Shown one piece after another: positions 12,393 to 28,203 of a stretch of 64,000 bases of DNA. The notes beneath the pieces are model-generated. The model was not told the DNA's origin. It worked only from the letters and a program-made list of their open reading frames with translations, and made no database searches. The stretch's first letter is position 1. Each line of letters begins with the position of its first letter. Position numbers and translations under genes: made by a program. The DNA comes from Paenibacillus bovis. Its GTDB lineage: Bacteria > Bacillota > Bacilli > Paenibacillales > Paenibacillaceae. The DNA lies in assembly GCF_001421015.2 (NCBI RefSeq), contig NZ_CP013023.1:1106001-1170000 (forward strand). Direction: 5' to 3'.

Positions 12393-12785
12393 ATGATGTC
12401 ATCATATCAGATTTTAATTGCGGAGGATGAACCTGCGCTGCGTTTTTTGCTGCTGGAGACATTGGAAGACGAAGGGTACCAGGTTACAGAAGCCGAGGAT
12501 GGCGGACTGGCACGGGAGAAGCTGGCCGGGCAGTCTTATGATCTGATTATTCTTGATTATATGATGCCGGAAGCTACAGGGATCGAAGTATGTGAATGGC
12601 TGCGGGGCAGCGGTGGTATCAATGAAGATAAACCGGTCATTTTGTTGACTGCCAAAGCACAGGAGAAGGATCGGATCCGGGCAGAACAGGCCGGGGTTAC
12701 CCTTTATATTTCCAAGCCATTTAGTCCGCTGCAGCTGCTGGATGCTGTGGAAGAATTGCTATCCGGTACGCAGAGGGATAACTGA
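12393..12785 (+). CDS. Single-domain response regulator (CheY-like)
   Basis: A stand-alone receiver domain. The acidic pair E11/D12, phospho-acceptor D55 in LIILDYMMP, the T/S switch (LLTAK) and K108 in YISKPF are all present. There is no output domain, so it should act by protein contact or as a phosphate shuttle. It is the first gene of a co-directional cluster. Its TGA overlaps the ATG of the hybrid kinase (TGATG), a sign of translational coupling. Two consecutive ATG codons (12393 and 12396) follow AAGGAGG; either could start. Confidence 0.92.
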   Translation: MMSSYQILIAEDEPALRFLLLETLEDEGYQVTEAEDGGLAREKLAGQSYDLIILDYMMPEATGIEVCEWLRGSGGINEDKPVILLTAKAQEKDRIRAEQAGVTLYISKPFSPLQLLDAVEELLSGTQRDN

Positions 12786-15700
12786 TGCAGGCCGGCGGGG
12801 GATTGGCACGCAGAATTGCCCGGTGGACGATCATTGTTTTTCTGATTTTTGGACTGATTGTATTTGCTGTGGAATGGACATTCAAGCAGCAGGTTTCGCA
12901 GATCACGGATCAGATTAATTACCATCTTGATCAGCAGAATCGCCTGCAAAAGATGGGGGAAGACTATCGCTCGACAGTATCGAATTTTCGGGCGTATCTG
13001 GCATATGACCGTGAAGATTTTCTGACAGCAGCCCGTACGGATCGGGATCAATTTCGCAGTGAACTGAACGATTATCGTACACAGCTGAGCCATAGTACGA
13101 CCATGACCGAACAGCTGGATGGATTGGTGCGTCAGAGCGAGGAGTATTTCAGTTATTTCCCGACGATTCAGCAGATGAAGCAGGAGGGCAACCAGACAGA
13201 GATTGAGCGTCTGTCCCAGACGACAAGCGCACTGGTCAAGACGGTTAATGGAGAAATGGAGCAGCTGATTGCTGCTGAACGCAACGAAGTTACTCTGCTG
13301 ATGCAAAAGAGCCAGCATCTCAATTCACTGGTGCTATTTATCCCGCTGGTATTTATTGCGCTCGGACTAATAGCGGCGCTGCTGCTGATCCGTTATCTAA
13401 GGGAATTGATCGTCAAGCCGGTCATACAGATGGAATCTGCCGTCCGTCATATCAGCCAGGGAGAACATGTACGGCTGGATCATCGGGTGAATGAAGACGA
13501 GATCGGCAGTCTTATGGATGGCATTAATCATATGAGTGACCAGTTACAGGAACGCCATCAGGAACTGGAAAAAACGCTGCAGCATATGGCAGAACAGCAT
13601 GATGAACTGGAAGCACAAAACGAGGAAATTCTGGTACAGCAGCATGAGCAGGAAGTCATTCTGGCCAAATTGACCGACCGGGAGAGACAGCTGCAATTAA
13701 TTAACTCTTATCAGGAAAAGCTGACCGGCTTTACAACAATGAGCGAATTTTTGGAGAGCAGTCTGCGCGCACTGCTGCAGGCAACCCATCATGATGCATT
13801 GATGCTCGTGATCCAGTCGGAGCAGGAAGCATCGGTATTTCATACGATTCATGCGATTGGGTGGCCCGGACATACAGAGCCGTCTCATCGCACCGGGTTA
13901 TTCGGTCCCGCACTCCAGGTGATGGAAGAAAAAAGACCGATTATACGCAGCCGGGTACTGAGCGGAGAAGAACGCGGCATTCATCTGGGCTATGAACGCG
14001 CAGATGATCATTACTATCCGCTCTGCGATGATCATATGAGAGTAATCGGTTTTCTTTTGCTGACGACCTATGGAAGTGCAGCCGTTCAGATACATGACAA
14101 AATGCTGACCGAAGGACTGGTTAATCAGTTCGGAATGGCCTATCAGGCACAGCTCGCAGGAGAAGAACGTCTCAAGCAGAGTATCCGCCTGGAAGAATTG
14201 AATGCCGAGCTGGAAGTGGAAAAGCTGATGATTCGTCAGCAGCGCGATACCATTCAGGAGATTATCGACTCGCTGCATGAAGGACTGGTGCTGTGCGACC
14301 AGGAAGGAACGGTTTCCTTTTCCAATGAGCAGGTAAGCCGTGTACTGCCGGATCTGCGTACAGGTGCAAGCATTATGGCGCTGGGCGATTATCTGGATAC
14401 ACATAGCGTTCATGCGGAGAATCTGAGTGCACAGATTCAGCAGGCTATCCAGGGAATGGAAAATGACTGGAAAACCCAGTTTTCCCTGCGCGGCCGTGAC
14501 GGCTCTATTTATTATCTGGAACTGTATATCAATACGATTACAGGAGCGGATATGAAGGAATATTATCTGCTGGTTTTCCGCGATCGTACCGAAGAAGAAC
14601 AGGCCGATCAGATGAAAAATGAATTTGTCAGCATCGTCTCACATGAGCTGCGTACGCCGCTGGCCAGTATTCTCGGTTTTGTGGAGATACTGCTGCATCG
14701 TGAAGTGAAACCTGAGAAATCACGCAAATACATGGAGACTATCCACCGGGAAGCGAATCGGCTATCCAATCTGATCAGCGATTTTCTGGATCTGCAGCGC
14801 ATGGAGTCCGGCAAGCAAAATTATACGCGGGTTCCATTTGATCTGAGACCGATTGTACATGATGTTGCCCGTCAGTGGGACGGCAAGCAGGAGCACCAGA
14901 TACAGATTATGCTGCCGGAAGATCCGTGTTTTGTCGATGCGGATACAGACCGGATCACCCAGGTGATGCACAATCTGATCAGCAATGCCATCAAGTATTC
15001 GCCGGGTCAGCCGCAGATTGATGTGCGGATTGTCGATGGTGGAACCGACTGGATCGCCGAGGTGCAGGATTACGGACTCGGCATACCGGACGAAGCCAAG
15101 GATAAAATGTTCGGTAAATTCTATCGGGTAGATAATTCGGATCGCCGCCAGATTGGCGGAACCGGACTGGGTCTGGCGATTGTACGTGAAATCGTACGCG
15201 ATCTAGGCGGGGACGTTTATTTTGATTCCCGTCTGGGTGAAGGCAGTACATTTGCAGTACGTTTACCCAAGTTCAATATCTCGCAGCTGGATAATAAAGT
15301 CGTAATTATCGAGGATGATGATAATCTGTCCGGTCTGATCCGGGCTACTTTTGAGGAACAGCAGTATGATATCCTGTCGCTGACGACAGCAGAAGCAGCC
15401 ATACTCAGCCTGGAGCAGAGCGAGAAGCCGCCGCTGCTGTGCATTGTAGATATTCAGCTGTCCGGCTCGCGCAGCGGCTGGGACTTTATCAGTATTCTCA
15501 AAAACCGGGAAGAAAGCCGCCATGTGCCTGTAATTGTCTCGTCTGCGCTGGATCAGCCGGGAGACTTTGCAGAGAAACCGAATGAAAAGTATTTGCAGAA
15601 GCCGTTTACGGTAGAGCGGATGAAAGAACTTGGTATTGCGCTAATTCAGAAGGGCACCCATACAACGGATGTGGTGATCGCCGGGCATAATGAACAGGTA

Positions 15701-15796
15701 ATTCAGTCGGCTTTGAAAAAGAATGGACTGCAGGCTGTGCACATGAAGGTCAACGAAGATTTTATTAGCGTAGATCTGCTGGGAGAAGAAGACTGA
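12785..15796 (+). CDS. Hybrid sensor histidine kinase with C-terminal receiver
   Basis: A 1003-residue membrane kinase. TM1 lies near 12-29, then an extracytoplasmic helical sensor of about 150 residues (CHASE3-like in length), then TM2 near 182-203. A HAMP segment and a coiled coil (255-310) follow. Next are a GAF-like region (310-450), a PAS-like region (490-600) and HisKA with H620 in SHELRTPL. The ATPase domain shows an N box (HNLISNAIKYSP) and G boxes (DYGLGIPD, GGTGLGLAIV). The terminal receiver has E843-D845, D889 and K939. Its phosphate could pass to the HPt of the next gene and on to the free receivers. Translationally coupled to the CheY-like gene. Confidence 0.93.
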   Translation: MQAGGGLARRIARWTIIVFLIFGLIVFAVEWTFKQQVSQITDQINYHLDQQNRLQKMGEDYRSTVSNFRAYLAYDREDFLTAARTDRDQFRSELNDYRTQLSHSTTMTEQLDGLVRQSEEYFSYFPTIQQMKQEGNQTEIERLSQTTSALVKTVNGEMEQLIAAERNEVTLLMQKSQHLNSLVLFIPLVFIALGLIAALLLIRYLRELIVKPVIQMESAVRHISQGEHVRLDHRVNEDEIGSLMDGINHMSDQLQERHQELEKTLQHMAEQHDELEAQNEEILVQQHEQEVILAKLTDRERQLQLINSYQEKLTGFTTMSEFLESSLRALLQATHHDALMLVIQSEQEASVFHTIHAIGWPGHTEPSHRTGLFGPALQVMEEKRPIIRSRVLSGEERGIHLGYERADDHYYPLCDDHMRVIGFLLLTTYGSAAVQIHDKMLTEGLVNQFGMAYQAQLAGEERLKQSIRLEELNAELEVEKLMIRQQRDTIQEIIDSLHEGLVLCDQEGTVSFSNEQVSRVLPDLRTGASIMALGDYLDTHSVHAENLSAQIQQAIQGMENDWKTQFSLRGRDGSIYYLELYINTITGADMKEYYLLVFRDRTEEEQADQMKNEFVSIVSHELRTPLASILGFVEILLHREVKPEKSRKYMETIHREANRLSNLISDFLDLQRMESGKQNYTRVPFDLRPIVHDVARQWDGKQEHQIQIMLPEDPCFVDADTDRITQVMHNLISNAIKYSPGQPQIDVRIVDGGTDWIAEVQDYGLGIPDEAKDKMFGKFYRVDNSDRRQIGGTGLGLAIVREIVRDLGGDVYFDSRLGEGSTFAVRLPKFNISQLDNKVVIIEDDDNLSGLIRATFEEQQYDILSLTTAEAAILSLEQSEKPPLLCIVDIQLSGSRSGWDFISILKNREESRHVPVIVSSALDQPGDFAEKPNEKYLQKPFTVERMKELGIALIQKGTHTTDVVIAGHNEQVIQSALKKNGLQAVHMKVNEDFISVDLLGEED

Positions 15797-15915
15797 TACT
15801 TCCTCCAAAATGGGTAATGAAACAGTAAAAGGAAATTATTCTGGATATGAAAACTGGCTGCTTCATAGGCGCTGTATTCTGATCGCGCAAATGCAGAACA
15901 GCCGGGGGAGGCAGT

Positions 15916-18090
15916 ATGGATAAATATCAGCGGCTTTTTATCAAACAGATGAAAGATAAAATCAAAAAAATGACGTTGACTGGTCAAACGACACCCGAGC
16001 CGGAGCTGTATCGTCTGGTGCATTCTGCCAAAGGCACCTCCGGCACGATTGGACTGGATGACTGGTTTGGCGCAGCTGCAGAATTGATAGATCGTCTGGA
16101 GCCGGAAGGAGAAAAAGTATGGTCGGCAGAGCAGGTACGAGAGCTGCTGGCACCGATGGTCTATTTATTTCTGCTGGCGGATGAAGATGCCGAAGAAGAC
16201 GATGTGCCTGCAAATGAGCCGGAGACCCAGCCGGCTCCGGTCTATCAGGGTACGCTGCTGGTAGTGGATGATGATACGAGTCTGCTGCAAATGCTCAAGG
16301 ATCAGCTGGAGCAGGCAGGCTATATGACATTTGCCGCTTCGGACGGTACGCGGGCGATGGAGCTTTTTTATAATATGAAGCCGGATTGTATCATTCTGGA
16401 TATTATGCTGCACGATAAGGATGGATTTGAGCTGCTGCAGGAAATTCAGGCACGCAGTGAGCAGTATTTGATTCCGGTTATTCTGATAAGTACCAGCGCA
16501 GACCGGACGACACGAATGAGAGCATATGCCTCGGGAGCCGATGACTTTATCGGCAAACCGCTGGATATGGAAGAATTTATTTTACGTATTCGTCATCAGG
16601 TACAGCGGAGGATGAAGCTGAACACGCTGCTTATGTCGGATGAACTGACCGGCGCGTATAACAGTACTTATTTTGCCCAGGAACTGGTTCGTCATCTGCA
16701 GCGGCTAGCCGATCATCATGAGCCGGCGGTATTGACCTTATTCGATCTGGACAGCTTCCGTCATATCAATGAGCGTTACGGTTATGCAGAAGGAGATCGA
16801 CTGCTTCGTTATTTCTCCGATCTGGTACGTCGTTCGCTCGGACCGCAAGATATCTGGGCACGTGATCGGCATGACCGGTTTTATCTGCTCCAGCCCGGCA
16901 TCAGGGAAAAGGAAGCTGTTTCTTTTGCCAATCAGCTGTTGGAACGATTGGAAAGGGAAGAACATCTGATTGGCCCCGACAGCTACCGGGTTACTTTTTC
17001 GGCAGGAGTGCTGGAGCTGAAGGCGGGGATGACGGCGCAGTCTTGCTATGATCAGATTCTGCGCATCGTAGCAGAAGCCAAGCGCAGGCATGACGGGGTC
17101 ATGATCGTACCGGAGCGACGCCGGATTGCAGAGGTTCATCCAGCCCATCTATTCGGAGAAACGAGAAGCGAACTATCGGCGGCGACTGTACGATCCAACC
17201 CGGAATCGGCTGAGACGATGAGTAACGTTCCGGATTCTGTCGTAGAGGAAGAGAAACACGCAGCGAATCAGGTAGAAGCGCTGCTAAGCTCTGTTTCTTC
17301 CCGTATCAAGAAATATGCGGACAAAAAGCCTATTTTCTCTATCGACCGGGAAGAGCAGTCTGCTACACCGACTGTAGATCCATCTCGTCAATTGATGCCA
17401 TCCGAACAGGAAACTACTGGGTTTGATAAAAGTGAACCGTCTGTAGATCCAGCCGGTTCAGCAGAAGGGATGCTCGAAGAAGATCATGTTCTACCGGGTG
17501 CTGTCGATCAGAAGATATCTTCGGTTGTGGAATCTTCGCTGCCGCTTCAAACCGATATGATTCGTGAACGTGAAGCAACCGGAGAGAGTGGTGGACACCG
17601 CGCTATGCTGGAATGGGTAGGCTATGAGGAGCAGACGCTCGTTAGCCGGCAGGTGGCGGAGGTAGAGCAGGCTCCTGTGCCACCTGCCGGGATTAAGCCG
17701 TGGCGATTGGCTATTATTGATGATGATGACCTGATCCGCGGCATGCTTAGTAAACGGCTGGGCGGACTGGATATCGAACATACGCTGGAAATCCGAACAT
17801 TTAGCGATGGTGAAGACTTTTTCACCGATCCGTGGCATGGAGAAGATGCGCAGTATGTCGTTATCCTCGACCGGATGATGCCGCGAATGAACGGAATGGA
17901 AGTACTGCGCCGGATTCGCAATATGGAGACGCGGGCCAATTATATGGTACTCATGCTGACCAGTGTCGGCGATGATCGTGAAGTCGCAGAGGCTATCCGG
18001 GCCGGCACGGATGACTACCTGACCAAGCCGTTCAGTATTGTAGAACTGGAAGCCCGTATCCGGCGTCTGCTCGGGAGGATGGGATTATGA
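15916..18090 (+). CDS. HPt-receiver-degenerate GGDEF-receiver protein
   Basis: A 724-residue soluble multi-domain protein. It begins with an HPt module (H36 in HSAKGTSGTIG). Receiver 1 covers about 112-232 (DDD at 118-120, D162, K214). A GGDEF-like domain follows at 240-395, then a long acidic linker (400-590), then receiver 2 at 594-724 (D652, K704). In the GGDEF-like domain the catalytic signature is RHDRF (318-322) instead of GGDEF. The inhibitory RxxD is GPQD (309-312), so neither cyclase activity nor classical I-site binding is expected. It may be a c-di-GMP-independent scaffold or a relic receptor. GGGGGAGG precedes the ATG. Its end overlaps the HEAT gene by four bases. Confidence 0.92.
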   Translation: MDKYQRLFIKQMKDKIKKMTLTGQTTPEPELYRLVHSAKGTSGTIGLDDWFGAAAELIDRLEPEGEKVWSAEQVRELLAPMVYLFLLADEDAEEDDVPANEPETQPAPVYQGTLLVVDDDTSLLQMLKDQLEQAGYMTFAASDGTRAMELFYNMKPDCIILDIMLHDKDGFELLQEIQARSEQYLIPVILISTSADRTTRMRAYASGADDFIGKPLDMEEFILRIRHQVQRRMKLNTLLMSDELTGAYNSTYFAQELVRHLQRLADHHEPAVLTLFDLDSFRHINERYGYAEGDRLLRYFSDLVRRSLGPQDIWARDRHDRFYLLQPGIREKEAVSFANQLLERLEREEHLIGPDSYRVTFSAGVLELKAGMTAQSCYDQILRIVAEAKRRHDGVMIVPERRRIAEVHPAHLFGETRSELSAATVRSNPESAETMSNVPDSVVEEEKHAANQVEALLSSVSSRIKKYADKKPIFSIDREEQSATPTVDPSRQLMPSEQETTGFDKSEPSVDPAGSAEGMLEEDHVLPGAVDQKISSVVESSLPLQTDMIREREATGESGGHRAMLEWVGYEEQTLVSRQVAEVEQAPVPPAGIKPWRLAIIDDDDLIRGMLSKRLGGLDIEHTLEIRTFSDGEDFFTDPWHGEDAQYVVILDRMMPRMNGMEVLRRIRNMETRANYMVLMLTSVGDDREVAEAIRAGTDDYLTKPFSIVELEARIRRLLGRMGL

Positions 18091-19202
18091 ACAGCATGGA
18101 TCCCGATTCCGTACTGACTGTTGTACTATGGCTCTGCGCTGTGATGCTGGCCGCACTGGTCGCACTGTATGTCTATCTGGCAATACGTAAATCCAGATTC
18201 AATCGAAGAGCAGCTGCCGTCTACAAACTGCGCAAGGAAATGGAGCAATCCGACTCGGTGCTGGAAGAATATCTATTGACCGGCGAGACATCGCGCCGTC
18301 TGTCCACCAAAGAGCCTTTTCGAATGGAGGCGATTCAGGAGGCGCTGCTGCATCGGCTGTCGATCAGTCGTACGCCTGAGGAACGCAGCCGGATTTATGA
18401 TTTTGCGGAAAAGTATTTTTCCAGTCAATATGAACACTCACTGCATGATCGCCAGTGGAGCACCCGTATGAATACCCTGCTCTGGATTGAACAGTTCCAG
18501 ATGACATCTATGGAAAAGGATCTGCTCGAATGGATGAACGATCCGCAGTGTTCGGAAGAAGAATATTTTCAGATTCTGCGAATTCTGTCCAAACTGAACA
18601 GCCATAAAATCCCTGAATATTTGAAAGGGAATGACCATGATCTGTCCGACAGTCAGCTGCTGCAGATTTTGCTTCCACTGAATGATGAGCTGCAGGGCGA
18701 GCTGATTGCCGAATTCGACCAGTATCCGTTCCGGGTGCGCTGCAGTTTTATTGATTCGCTGCGTATTCGCAATATTCGATCTGCCGAAGTGCTGAACTTG
18801 CTGGAGCGTCAGCTGGCTGGAAACGACAGTGAGCTGCGTATCCGCGCACTCAAGGCAATTTCCAACTTTGGCTATCTAACGCCGGAAGCGACCCGGCAGC
18901 TGGTAGAGAAGATGGAGCATGAGCATGATCAGGCGGTAGAACAGGTATCCTGGCCGGAACGGCTGATGCGTGCCAGAGTCATGGGTAATATCCGTGAAGA
19001 TATCTTCGTACCCTATCTGGAGGAAATGCTGGGGGATTCGGCTTACCGGGTTCGCCAGCAGGCAGCCGAATCCCTGGCTGCCTACAAAAACGGACTGGAG
19101 CTGCTGGAAAAGGTGGCTGCCGGTGAACATGCGGACCGCTATGCGCGCGAGATGGCGGAGGAGACGCTGGAAAGGAAACAATATGAGCGGAATCTGGCTT
19201 GA
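18087..19202 (+). CDS. Membrane-anchored HEAT-repeat protein
   Basis: The 371 residues begin with one N-terminal membrane segment (VLTVVLWLCAVMLAALVALYVYLAI). A basic stop and a long alpha-helical cytoplasmic part follow. From about residue 230 there are HEAT-like repeats (ELRIRALKAISNFGYLTPEATRQL; AYRVRQQAAESLAAYKNGLELL). Such repeats are protein-binding scaffolds. It starts within the last codons of the HPt/GGDEF gene (ATGA overlap) and ends 20 bp inside the glycosyltransferase gene. A role in tethering the signalling proteins to the glycosyltransferase at the membrane is inferred from position. Confidence 0.85.
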   Translation: MNSMDPDSVLTVVLWLCAVMLAALVALYVYLAIRKSRFNRRAAAVYKLRKEMEQSDSVLEEYLLTGETSRRLSTKEPFRMEAIQEALLHRLSISRTPEERSRIYDFAEKYFSSQYEHSLHDRQWSTRMNTLLWIEQFQMTSMEKDLLEWMNDPQCSEEEYFQILRILSKLNSHKIPEYLKGNDHDLSDSQLLQILLPLNDELQGELIAEFDQYPFRVRCSFIDSLRIRNIRSAEVLNLLERQLAGNDSELRIRALKAISNFGYLTPEATRQLVEKMEHEHDQAVEQVSWPERLMRARVMGNIREDIFVPYLEEMLGDSAYRVRQQAAESLAAYKNGLELLEKVAAGEHADRYAREMAEETLERKQYERNLA

Positions 19203-20619
19203 TATTACAGGAACCATTTTCGAAATCCTGAGCATTATTATTATGATCTATGTCGTCAGTGTCAGTATTGCTTATGTTGTTCTATTTTTCGTGGCAGCAC
19301 GGAAGTTGAACCGGGAAAAGGACCTGAACGAGAGCCAGTATGATCAGGTGCTGGAAGAAGAGCTCGCTCCGCCGCTGTCGATTATCGTACCGGCTTATAA
19401 TGAAGAACTGAATATTGTCTGGAGTGTGCGTTCGCTGCTGGGTATCAATTACAAGCAGTTCGAGATTGTAGTCGTCAATGACGGCTCCAAGGATCAGACG
19501 GTACAGTATCTGATCGATGAATTCGATATGGTCGAGGTCAAGAGCCGGGTGCGCTGGTCCGGACTGGGTAAGCCGACCAAGCCGATCCGGGGGATTTACC
19601 GTTCGCTGCAGCATAACAATCTGGTGCTGGTCGACAAGGAAAATGGCGGCAAAGCCGACGCCCTGAATGTAGGTATTAATGTATGCCAGTATCCGTACTT
19701 TGCTTCGCTGGACGGGGATACCGTACTGGACCAGGATGCTTTTATCAAAGTTATGAAGCCGATTATGGATGCCGGTCCCAATGAAGAGATTGTCGCTACA
19801 GGTGGCAGTGTGGGGATTGCCAACGGCAGTTATGTGGATAGCGGTTATCTGAGTCGCGAGAGTGTGCGTCTGTCCAGCAAGCCGCTGGTGGTGATGCAGG
19901 TTATCGAGTATCTGCGCGCTTTCCTGATGGGGCGGATCGGACTCAGCCGGCATAATCTGCTGCTGATCGTATCCGGTGCATTCGGTATTTTCAAAAAAAG
20001 CTGGGTAATCGAGGTCGGTGGCTATGAGGTCGATACGGTCGGTGAAGATATGGAGCTGATCGTACGCCTGCATCGCCGGATTCAGGAAAAGAAAAGCAAA
20101 GCACAGATCGTCTATGTGCCCGATCCGGTCTGCTGGACCGAAGCCCCGGAGAAAGCCAAAATTCTGCGTCGTCAGCGTACCCGTTGGCATCGCGGTCTAT
20201 ATGAGAGTCTGTGGCGGCACAAAGTGATGCTGTTCAATCCCAAGTACGGCAAGATCGGTATGATCTCGATGCCTTATTTTCTGTTCGTGGAGCTGCTCGG
20301 ACCAGTCGTTGAGCTGGCAGGGGTGCTGACTGTCATCGTAGGGATTTTCCTCGATACGGTCGATGTGCGGATTACGATTGTACTGGCTCTGCTCATGCTG
20401 CTGTACGGTTCCCTGCTGTCCATGGGGGCAGTCTTGTTCGAGGAATGGTGCTTCAAGCGATACAACCGGGTAGCGGATCTGACACGGCTGTTTTTGTTCG
20501 CATTATCCGAGACCTTCTGGTATCGTCCGATTATGACACTCTGGCGGTTTGAAGGACTGGTTCAGATTGTACGGCGCAAAAATCAGGGCTGGGGGGTATG
20601 GCACGCGGTGGTGTCATGA
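19183..20619 (+). CDS. Processive-type GT2 glycosyltransferase (PgaC/IcaA/BcsA-like)
   Basis: A 478-residue membrane glycosyltransferase. One TM segment lies near 13-38. The GT-A domain has PLSIIVPAYNEELNI (65-79), VVVNDGS (97-102), the DGD metal site (177-179), the GED catalytic-base motif (287-289) and the QRTRW product-channel motif (331-335). C-terminal TM segments follow (about 365-460). This set is shared with synthases of beta-linked polymers such as PNAG and cellulose, so it probably polymerises and exports a surface polysaccharide; the sugar is unknown. The ATG at 19183 has AAAGGA upstream. There is no PilZ domain, so any c-di-GMP control must act through a partner. Confidence 0.92.
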   Translation: MSGIWLDITGTIFEILSIIIMIYVVSVSIAYVVLFFVAARKLNREKDLNESQYDQVLEEELAPPLSIIVPAYNEELNIVWSVRSLLGINYKQFEIVVVNDGSKDQTVQYLIDEFDMVEVKSRVRWSGLGKPTKPIRGIYRSLQHNNLVLVDKENGGKADALNVGINVCQYPYFASLDGDTVLDQDAFIKVMKPIMDAGPNEEIVATGGSVGIANGSYVDSGYLSRESVRLSSKPLVVMQVIEYLRAFLMGRIGLSRHNLLLIVSGAFGIFKKSWVIEVGGYEVDTVGEDMELIVRLHRRIQEKKSKAQIVYVPDPVCWTEAPEKAKILRRQRTRWHRGLYESLWRHKVMLFNPKYGKIGMISMPYFLFVELLGPVVELAGVLTVIVGIFLDTVDVRITIVLALLMLLYGSLLSMGAVLFEEWCFKRYNRVADLTRLFLFALSETFWYRPIMTLWRFEGLVQIVRRKNQGWGVWHAVVS

Positions 20620-20659
20620 ACTCCAAAAAACCGGATAACCGGACTAATGGAGGTCAGCC

Positions 20660-21799
20660 ATGAAACGTAAACGTACCTGGACCTTCTGGCTGATTCCTCT
20701 GCTGGTCATCGCCCTGCTGCTGACCCCGTGGATATGGTGGGAAGCCAAGCCGGCGACTACGCTGCAGGTGGCTATTCTCGACAAAACGGTACCGGATACG
20801 ACGTACCGTGAGCATAAAGGACTCGTCTGGCTGCTCAATCAGCAAAAATATGTCAAAGCGGATCAGCAGCCTTATGATTATACCAAAGATTATTATGGAT
20901 TTTTTCCAAAGCCGGATCATCAGTATGAGACCACCGGACTGCCAGCCGACTTAACGGGTACCGACATGATCTATGTAACCGATACGTACGGTATCGAACG
21001 TGCCCAGTATAACAAGGACAATTCGACCACCGGTGATCTATCGGCAGGAATGCTCTACGGAGGACTGACCGTCCCGGATGTGCAGCGGATTCGCAGTGCG
21101 GTGACAAGTGGTGGGGTAAAAACGCTGATCGCCGAGTTCAATAGTCTCGCGACACCTACACAGCCCGGTACCCGCAAAGAATTTTATCCGCTGATTGGAG
21201 CGGAATGGACCGGATGGACAGGCAGATATTTCAGCGATCTGACCCGCGGCGGCGAAGTGCCTGCCTTTCTGAGCGGGGATGGCAGTGATCCGAATCGCTG
21301 GCCATATACCGGGCCTGGCGTAGTATTTGTCCATGAAGACGGTCGGGTGGTCGTGCTGGAACAAGGCAAGCAGATCGGCGAAGAAGGTGTACAGACGATA
21401 TTGACGACCCAGGGCAAAGCCCGGCTGGGACTGGACAGCACGATTCGTTACAATTACTGGTTTGACGTAATGAAGCCTGCTGAAGGCACAGAAGTACTGG
21501 CCAATTACAATCTGGGTCTGACCGAGGATGGCAAGCACAAGCTGCAGGCCGCCGGGATCAGTTATGAATTCCCGGCTGTAATCCGGCAGCAGCATGACAC
21601 CTATGTATCGTATTACTTTGCAGGAGATTATGCGGACTACGATCACTATTCGTTCTGGCGCAAGTATCAGGGCTGGGAGACTTTCAAACGCTGGCTGACA
21701 TTTGACCGTCCCAACAGCGAAGACGCTTTTTACTGGCATATTTATGTGCCTTTGATGAAATCGATTCTTCAGGAAACGGCCGCAGCCAGCAGCAAATAA
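20660..21799 (+). CDS. Membrane-anchored extracytoplasmic protein, unknown function
   Basis: 379 residues: a basic N-terminus, one membrane segment (about 9-28), then a large extracytoplasmic domain rich in Tyr, Asp and Trp. The opening (LQVAILDKTVPDTTYREHKGLVWLLNQQK) and later GTDMIYVTDTYG, SGGVKTLIAEFNSLA and EWTGWTGRYFSDL suggest a Rossmann-like, glutamine-amidotransferase or deacetylase-like fold. No catalytic triad was recognised. It closes the operon 40 bp after the glycosyltransferase, with GGAGG before the ATG. By position it may modify, bind or help export the polysaccharide, a place held by YdaL-like proteins in B. subtilis ydaJKLMN. Confidence 0.8.
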   Translation: MKRKRTWTFWLIPLLVIALLLTPWIWWEAKPATTLQVAILDKTVPDTTYREHKGLVWLLNQQKYVKADQQPYDYTKDYYGFFPKPDHQYETTGLPADLTGTDMIYVTDTYGIERAQYNKDNSTTGDLSAGMLYGGLTVPDVQRIRSAVTSGGVKTLIAEFNSLATPTQPGTRKEFYPLIGAEWTGWTGRYFSDLTRGGEVPAFLSGDGSDPNRWPYTGPGVVFVHEDGRVVVLEQGKQIGEEGVQTILTTQGKARLGLDSTIRYNYWFDVMKPAEGTEVLANYNLGLTEDGKHKLQAAGISYEFPAVIRQQHDTYVSYYFAGDYADYDHYSFWRKYQGWETFKRWLTFDRPNSEDAFYWHIYVPLMKSILQETAAASSK

Positions 21800-21827: not shown

Positions 21828-21856
21828 AAGCGGGGAAGCTCCCGGGCTTTTCCTGC
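21828..21856 (+). terminator. Probable terminator of the signalling/EPS operon
   Basis: AAGC-(GG)-GGGA ... TCCC-GG-GCTT followed by TTCCTG. A modest stem with a short T-rich tail. Confidence 0.5.
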
Positions 21857-26891: not shown

Positions 26892-27120
26892 TTTGTTTTC
26901 TGCAAAGCTTACCAACTGACCCGGAATGTATTTGCGCATAAATGAAGAACGTGTAACAGATGATAGAAGATATCCGGTTATAATGGAGAAGGTCTGTGCA
27001 AATGAACCATTTGCTTCTGAAGACCGTAACTATACATGGGTTCTTCTGGCTGTATTGCTGCCGAAGGAGTTCGTCTAAGGCGAATCCCATGAATACCGTT
27101 TGTATGAAAGGCTGGATATC

Positions 27121-28203
27121 ATGCTGATTAATCTGTTGAATAATTTAACATTAATGACGACTTTTCTGTTTCTGTGCAATCTGCTGCTGAACAAGATCCA
27201 GGAAAGCTTCCCTCAATACAGCCGTACTTTCCCTTATATTACCGGGCTATTGCTTGGTCTGCTGGGGATTGGGCTGATGTTTTTTAATGTCAGTGCACCT
27301 GGCGGTTTTCATCTGGATTTGCGTGTACTGGCTATTATCAGTGCAGTCTATATGTCCGGCCGTCTGGCAGGAGGCATCAGTCTGATTATTTTGCTGCTTG
27401 CACGATTTCTGCTGCTGGATACGAGTAATCCAGCCGGATTGTTTATTGGAACGACTATGCTGATTCTGGCGTTTGTGCTGTCGAGTCTTTTATTTGACGG
27501 GAAACATAATTACTCCTGGCGGCGCTGGGCTATTATTGTCGAGTGCAGTATGGTGCTGCCCTGCATCCCTATATATCTGATGTACAATGGCACTATTGTA
27601 CTGCCATTTTTGCTGGTTATGTTTGTTTATACACTGGGCGGGTTATTTACGTATCTATTGCTGACGTACCTGAGCCGTTCGAATCGTTCCATCTATCTGC
27701 TCAAAGAGAGTGCCAGTCGCGACTATCTCACCGGACTACATAATCCGAGGGCATTTGAAGCGATTTTTGAACAAAAGGTATTGCATGCCATGCGTACCCA
27801 CGAGCCGTTTGCTTTGCTGATGATGGATATTGATCATTTCAAATCGGTTAATGATACGTACGGCCACAGCGCAGGAGATGCGGTATTGTCCGAGATCGGC
27901 GAACTGCTGCATCATTTTGTCCGCTCTTCGGATGATTGTGCACGCAAAGGCGGAGAGGAATTCGTCGTTCTGCTGCACTGCTGCAATCATGAGCAGGCCC
28001 GGCAGGCAGGAGAGCGTCTGCGCCAGCAGATCGAGCAGCATGTTTTCCCGCTGCCGGATGGTCAACAGCTGCGTATTACGGCTTCGATCGGCATTTCTGT
28101 TTTCCCGGATCGGTCGGCGGAGGAGCTGCTGGACCAGGCCGATCAGGAACTGTACCGGGCCAAGAACGAAGGGCGCAACCGGGTCTGTGCAGCCGGAATA
28201 TAA
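27121..28203 (+). CDS. Diguanylate cyclase with 5TMR-LYT sensor
   Basis: 360 residues. The N-terminal membrane sensor has five to six hydrophobic segments. It includes the FNVSAPGGFHLDLRVLAIISAVYMSGRLAGGISLIILLLAR pattern of LytS-type 5TMR domains. A GGDEF domain begins near 197 (SRDYLTGLHN). The active site is GGEEF (277-281) and the inhibitory RxxD is intact (RSSD, 268-271), so it should make c-di-GMP and be feedback-inhibited. The ATG at 27121 follows AAAGG; a TTG seven codons earlier is possible. A second 5TMR protein begins at 63.4 kb. No operon partner. Confidence 0.92.
   Translation: MLINLLNNLTLMTTFLFLCNLLLNKIQESFPQYSRTFPYITGLLLGLLGIGLMFFNVSAPGGFHLDLRVLAIISAVYMSGRLAGGISLIILLLARFLLLDTSNPAGLFIGTTMLILAFVLSSLLFDGKHNYSWRRWAIIVECSMVLPCIPIYLMYNGTIVLPFLLVMFVYTLGGLFTYLLLTYLSRSNRSIYLLKESASRDYLTGLHNPRAFEAIFEQKVLHAMRTHEPFALLMMDIDHFKSVNDTYGHSAGDAVLSEIGELLHHFVRSSDDCARKGGEEFVVLLHCCNHEQARQAGERLRQQIEQHVFPLPDGQQLRITASIGISVFPDRSAEELLDQADQELYRAKNEGRNRVCAAGI

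Follow-up and report, generated by a model that had tools for sequence, protein, structure and literature searches.

A conserved phosphorelay and polysaccharide synthase operon in Paenibacillus bovis and a proposed switch by protein contact

We analyzed a 64,000-nucleotide stretch of the Paenibacillus bovis genome (NZ_CP013023.1, positions 1,106,001 to 1,170,000; here called the window) that contains a cluster of six genes, g1 to g6, in which a putative phosphorelay is combined with a family 2 glycosyltransferase (GT2) (Table 1). As described in an earlier note on this DNA, all six open reading frames are intact and co-directional (window 12393-21799), with overlaps of 1 bp (g1/g2), 4 bp (g3/g4) and 20 bp (g4/g5) and gaps of 119 bp (g2-g3) and 40 bp (g5-g6). 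A consensus scan, which is weak evidence, places a terminator-like site directly after g6 (21831-21844) and none on the + strand inside either gap; in total it returned 14 terminator-like sites (8.5 in shuffles) and 19 promoter-like sites (15.4 in shuffles).

Table 1. Genes of the operon and the receiver domain discussed in the text (window coordinates).
Feature	Position	Strand	Description	Evidence
g1	12393-12785	+	stand-alone CheY-like receiver, phospho-acceptor Asp55 (codon 12555-12557)	Pfam Response_reg, 99 bits
g2	12785-15796	+	membrane hybrid histidine kinase: sensor, HAMP, PAS, HisKA (His620), HATPase, C-terminal REC (Asp889)	Pfam
g3	15916-18090	+	HPt (His36) - REC1 (Asp162) - degenerate GGDEF - REC2 (Asp652)	Pfam and alignment
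REC2 of g3	17695-18087	+	receiver type persisting beside HEAT when the remaining g3 is absent	domain scan
g4	18087-19202	+	HEAT-repeat domain after N-terminal membrane helix	HEAT_2, 52 bits; 29-row alignment; helix read from sequence
g5	19183-20619 (ATG 19183)	+	membrane GT2 polysaccharide synthase	Pfam GT2, 71 bits
g6	20660-21799	+	signal-anchored, GATase1 / GH42-trimerisation-like domain; glycosidase part of relatives absent	

The first three genes have the parts of a His-Asp-His-Asp phosphorelay with a putative phosphate route: a hybrid kinase, an HPt histidine and receiver aspartates are present and conserved. Asp55 of g1 and His620 of g2 are kept in 50 of 50 aligned rows each, and Asp889 of g2 in 49 of 50, the remaining row having a gap; the sensor part of g2 resembles CHASE3, only below the Pfam cut-off. 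For g3 the Pfam scan gives two REC domains and the GGDEF domain above cut-off. Its HPt lies under the threshold (E 0.0053), but the assignment is upheld because 53 of 58 rows retain His36 (four gaps, one Asp), i.e., 53 of the 54 rows with a letter at that position. Asp162 of REC1 is found in 49/58 rows and Asp652 of REC2 in 58/58. The count of four receivers and one HPt in the earlier note is thus borne out, and all four receivers are predicted to be phosphorylatable. Equally in agreement with that note, a Pfam scan (E up to 0.1) detected no DNA-binding or PilZ domain in the six proteins.

Processive GT2 enzymes are marked by D, DxD, (T/G)ED and QxxRW motifs. In g5 the corresponding catalytic motifs D100GS, D177xD179, GED289 and Q331RxRW335 are intact, with a conservation of 1.00 in 68 aligned rows, and the residues D100, D177/D179, E288/D289 and Q331/R334/W335 mark it as a processive-type GT2, processivity itself being predicted only. 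The nearest NCBIfam family is TIGR03937 (PgaC/IcaA), which g5 matches far below its threshold (124.2 bits, cut-off 422.3). BcsA carries a C-terminal PilZ domain; g5 scores 38.2 bits against TIGR03030 (BcsA/CelA; cut-off 699.1) and has no PilZ in the Pfam scan.

The last gene, g6, had been called a membrane-anchored unknown protein. The anchoring stands: a positively charged N-terminus is followed by a single helix, so that, as read from the sequence, the domain of g6 should lie outside. The protein is not featureless, however. No family was matched in Pfam or NCBIfam, and structural similarity to the GATase1 / GH42 trimerisation-like fold covers most of the domain. A g6 profile search of named genomes gave 593 pattern-matching stretches, at least 494 of which code for a relative; the best 80 loci were kept, a set picked by g6 similarity and hence biased towards g6. 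In 58 of these 80 loci a glycosidase-like barrel, nearest to GH157, is fused to the g6 domain, and it is absent from the window operon. g6 is a member of a large uncharacterised family that is often glycosidase-fused. Identity to the deacetylase Agd3 and GH42 trimerisation-domain proteins is 7-18% among the matches listed, and g6 has no deacetylase Pfam domain. It is presumably also similar to PelA, for which a literature search gave nothing. Records titled as archaeal metagenome-assembled genomes (L036, L041, L057, L071), partly short stretches, encode g6-type proteins without HEAT or relay genes, which takes the g6 family outside the Bacilli.

We also considered that the glycosidase part had simply been lost from this genome, which was rejected: an unlinked glycosidase-like homologue of 759 amino acids is present (L181:8733-11012, G000:C1:96936-98984). 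It falls in a lower-scoring group (about 627-728 bits, versus 836-1108 for copies linked to HEAT-GT2) that occurs also without HEAT, so its tie to the operon appears weak. The glycosidase (GH) domain is present in 30 of 32 HEAT-positive versus 24 of 86 HEAT-negative Paenibacillaceae genomes (kinship ignored), and at least two of these 24 (G065, G127) have a diverged HEAT under the cut-off.

The concern that the neighbourhood might be peculiar to this strain did not materialize. By score thresholds 44 of the 80 loci contain all six genes; among the 64 whose flanks are complete, 37 do. The order g1-g2-g3-g4-g5-g6 is seen in Saccharibacillus and the Paenibacillus relatives of the window, and g3-g4-g5-g6-g1-g2 is usual in Bacillaceae; Alkalibacterium (L086) and a Clostridiaceae metagenome-assembled genome (L087) have g6-g1-g2-g3-HEAT-g5. 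A HEAT profile built from the g6-derived loci and the window (29-row alignment) detected HEAT in 76 of the 348 genomes of Bacilli and in 26 of 134 sampled genera (E <= 1e-15); neighbourhoods were inspected in part of the HEAT-positive genomes. Among 118 Paenibacillaceae genomes (E <= 1e-20), HEAT and g6 each occur in 32 and together in 26 (Fisher p 6e-15, kinship ignored), and all 26 pairs lie within about 4 kb by coordinates. Decay of the operon was considered and rejected in view of the intact core motifs and the 91-94% identity of g6 in the nearest relatives. A literature search by title and abstract start, with most subscription journals outside it, found no description of the gene set, in line with the earlier note. 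We conclude that this is a conserved gene set without a description found, made of known kinds of parts.

Which of these parts stay together was assessed with a domain-profile scan of loci L011-L110 and L141-L180, giving, after removal of four duplicates, 119 distinct HEAT loci (a count that excludes the window, L001-L010 and L111-L140). In 118/119 a GT2 gene is found no further than 300 bp from HEAT and in the same orientation. The REC2 profile picks out a receiver no more than 1.6 kb from HEAT in 100/119, elsewhere in the locus in three, and none in 16 (in L059 at a contig edge); one or both of the exported domains occur in 110/119. The phospho-site residue of the 100 near receivers is Asp in 83, Asn in nine, Ser in three, Glu in three, Gly in one and Thr in one. 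The Asn-for-Asp receivers stand next to HEAT in L102-L104, L155, L157, L160, L165, L170 and L172, in L102 and L103 behind a remnant still matched by the GGDEF profile. The remainder of g3 is less constant: in six Neobacillus/Bacillus loci it is replaced by a receiver of 140-144 amino acids directly upstream of HEAT that best matches REC2, and g1 and g2 were not found in these six loci, while L063, L076 and L093 retain HPt-REC-REC without GGDEF. On a quick GT2 tree of 119 rows (118 HEAT loci and the window), with several long branches, the pseudo-receiver state needs six changes, all six forced by well-supported branches, and receiver absence needs six, at least five of them forced. Scan and tree together indicate that the receiver can outlive kinase, HPt, GGDEF and, in several lineages, the phosphorylation site. 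In these sequences kinase, HPt and GGDEF behave as modules that can be lost, and HEAT-adjacent receivers have been converted repeatedly to predicted pseudo-receivers.

The adjacency of HEAT and GT2, the near receiver, the intact sites and the lack of a detected DNA-binding output fit control by protein contact. The relay probably tunes the production of a sugar polymer by contact rather than through gene expression. One might instead suppose that relay and synthase are functionally separate and share only an operon, the relay signaling to targets elsewhere. The 16 receiver-less HEAT-GT2 loci show that the core can exist without the relay, and five of them have the upstream flank of the window, a ccdC-like gene and an oxidoreductase. 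In L097, L098, L177 and L178 this flank borders HEAT-GT2-g6, with relay genes absent; it adjoins HEAT-GT2 in L096 and g6 alone in L105-L107; ccdC also adjoins the Saccharibacillus clusters and a lone g6 in L043-L045 and L061. The flank therefore seems to mark a chromosomal site of some age, where relay genes occur in some cases and not in others. The downstream neighbours of the window had no match in the L096-L107 relatives (E <= 1e-30). Mere sharing of an operon is nevertheless improbable in our view, as the receiver stays close although gene order varies (the relay genes can lie on either side, and the receiver can precede HEAT or follow GT2; L143, L144, L175 and L176 read GH part - HEAT - GT2 - receiver, which places the receiver some 1.4 kb away from HEAT), and it does so even where no kinase and HPt lie in the vicinity.

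Discussion of how synthase-type polysaccharide machines are controlled has centered mostly on cyclic di-GMP (c-di-GMP). In g3 of the window, RHDRF stands in place of the GGDEF motif and GPQD in place of the I-site, so that it has neither the GG(D/E)EF motif of an active diguanylate cyclase nor the RxxD I-site of a YdaK-type c-di-GMP receptor; both are gone as well in the two nearest relatives (L011, L012). In the window lineage the GGDEF domain is destroyed while the other core motifs are intact. All eight Saccharibacillus rows have lost the motif; six keep RxxD and two have K for R. Over the whole alignment, 40 of 58 g3 proteins carry a G(G/S)(D/E)E(F/I) motif, 37 of these with RxxD too, 16 are without a GGDEF-type motif and two without the domain. 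The lack of an enzymatic output claimed in the earlier note thus holds, as predicted from these motifs, for the window and some other lineages, and fails as a general property. Many relatives should make c-di-GMP, and the wide occurrence of intact motifs suggests that the degenerate GGDEF is a derived state.

This opens the alternative that c-di-GMP is the true effector: g3 would by origin be a PleD-like relay-controlled cyclase whose local c-di-GMP activates GT2 or HEAT, and in the window lineage other cyclases would supply it, or the degenerate domain would be a receptor as B. subtilis YdaK is. The intact motifs of relatives and the RxxD retained in Saccharibacillus are in its favor, as are the 22 GGDEF domains above the Pfam cut-off in the window's genome (including that of g3 and one at window 27712-28182) and the precedent of YdaK, whose interaction with DgcK requires an intact I-site according to passages of PMC7064775. 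Against it stand the loss of motif and I-site in the window, the lack of PilZ in the Pfam scan of the six proteins, and L063, L076, L093 and the six stand-alone-receiver loci, where no GGDEF is present and receiver and HEAT-GT2 persist. In the window lineage it would need outside supply and a receptor, and no receptor was found. We regard c-di-GMP as a rather unlikely effector overall; it may account for part of the control in relatives whose GGDEF is intact. Some 5 kb downstream of g6, the window encodes a GGDEF-domain protein of 367 amino acids (27100-28203, 160 bits), which could supply c-di-GMP.

Several known systems resemble the operon in part. Structures of PleD align with the REC-GGDEF portion of g3 at 111 bits, but g3 has an HPt and a C-terminal REC around it, and in the window has lost the catalytic motif. 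SypE of Vibrio fischeri is not known to act by DNA binding. Called a response regulator, it controls a polysaccharide locus of 18 genes via its partner SypA, a STAS-domain protein (PMC4517449). The ydaJKLMN operon of B. subtilis, also from a Gram-positive species, combines genes for synthesis and secretion with a putative glycosyl hydrolase and a c-di-GMP receptor of the degenerate-GGDEF kind (PMC13274460, PMC7064775). It is set apart by description: the passages of these sources mention no relay or HEAT protein, and YdaK needs its I-site (PMC7064775), which g3 of the window lacks. A precedent, according to PMC12802240, is the Dif pathway of Myxococcus xanthus, where the single-domain response regulator EpsW post-translationally stimulates EpsZ, so that a receiver-only regulator controls exopolysaccharide synthesis via a membrane transferase. 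In contrast to the synthase-type GT2 of the operon, EpsZ belongs to a Wzx/Wzy pathway as its phosphoglycosyl transferase; in the passages of that paper the kinase belongs to a chemosensory system and no HEAT protein appears. g1 reaches 62 bits against the EpsW family NF041866 (cut-off 200).

By narrow preference, we propose that the six genes together specify a polysaccharide machine of the synthase type that carries its own post-translational switch, in which contact of a receiver with HEAT-GT2 would gate synthesis. The kinase would pass phosphate from His620 to Asp889, to the HPt His36 and on to the receivers; phosphorylated REC2, perhaps with g1 or REC1, would dock on the HEAT protein, which should be cytoplasmic, and docking would change the activity of the GT2 held by HEAT. 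The GT2 would extrude the polymer, which g6 and, in relatives, the glycosidase domain would handle outside. In many relatives g3 is also expected to make c-di-GMP, a branch that the window lineage would have lost, keeping only the contact branch. EpsW offers a precedent for a receiver acting on a polysaccharide transferase. The role of HEAT as scaffold and phosphate-dependent contact is inferred, and the choice of output receiver among the four is a guess. Alternatively, the receiver would act directly on GT2 and HEAT would serve only to assemble or stabilize the synthase, as could be argued from the HEAT-GT2 pairing being tighter (118/119) than that of receiver and HEAT (100/119), and from the proposal that EpsW binds its transferase directly (passages of PMC12802240). 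As the receiver gene usually adjoins HEAT and not GT2, we consider this unlikely, gene order being weak evidence either way.

Several observations weigh against gating by receiver contact with HEAT-GT2. In a distance co-evolution test on 23 loci, a thinned subset of 40 usable ones, HEAT followed REC1 more closely (partial correlation 0.38) than it did REC2 (0.09), a result that leaving out any single locus never reversed. HEAT residues E249, K256 and M128 differ in frequency with receiver presence, a difference without significance over four independent pairs (median p 0.5 or 1). The 17/100 near receivers without phospho-Asp and the 16/119 loci without a receiver indicate that phosphate control is not universal; moreover, the REC2 profile recognises other receivers too, and "REC2-type" is a loose term for the most divergent ones. 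g6 stands alone in 12/80 loci by score thresholds (four on short stretches), which speaks against a tight unit, and the GGDEF-type motif in 40/58 g3 proteins means that c-di-GMP may be the main effector there.

It is possible, as a tentative generalization, that HEAT-GT2 represents a widespread, undescribed class of polysaccharide synthases in Bacilli, gated independently of c-di-GMP by a dedicated receiver via a HEAT adaptor, in which binding rather than phosphate would be the constant (the receiver repeatedly becoming a pseudo-receiver) and relay and cyclase modules would be swapped around. The analysis flags a biofilm-type cluster of many Bacilli for which no name was found, with two exported domains without a Pfam family. 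Around one HEAT-GT2 pair there is a natural series, from kinase-HPt-cyclase-receiver to a lone receiver, a receiver without phosphate site and none, and this series makes possible a direct test of whether a receiver gates polymer synthesis by contact.

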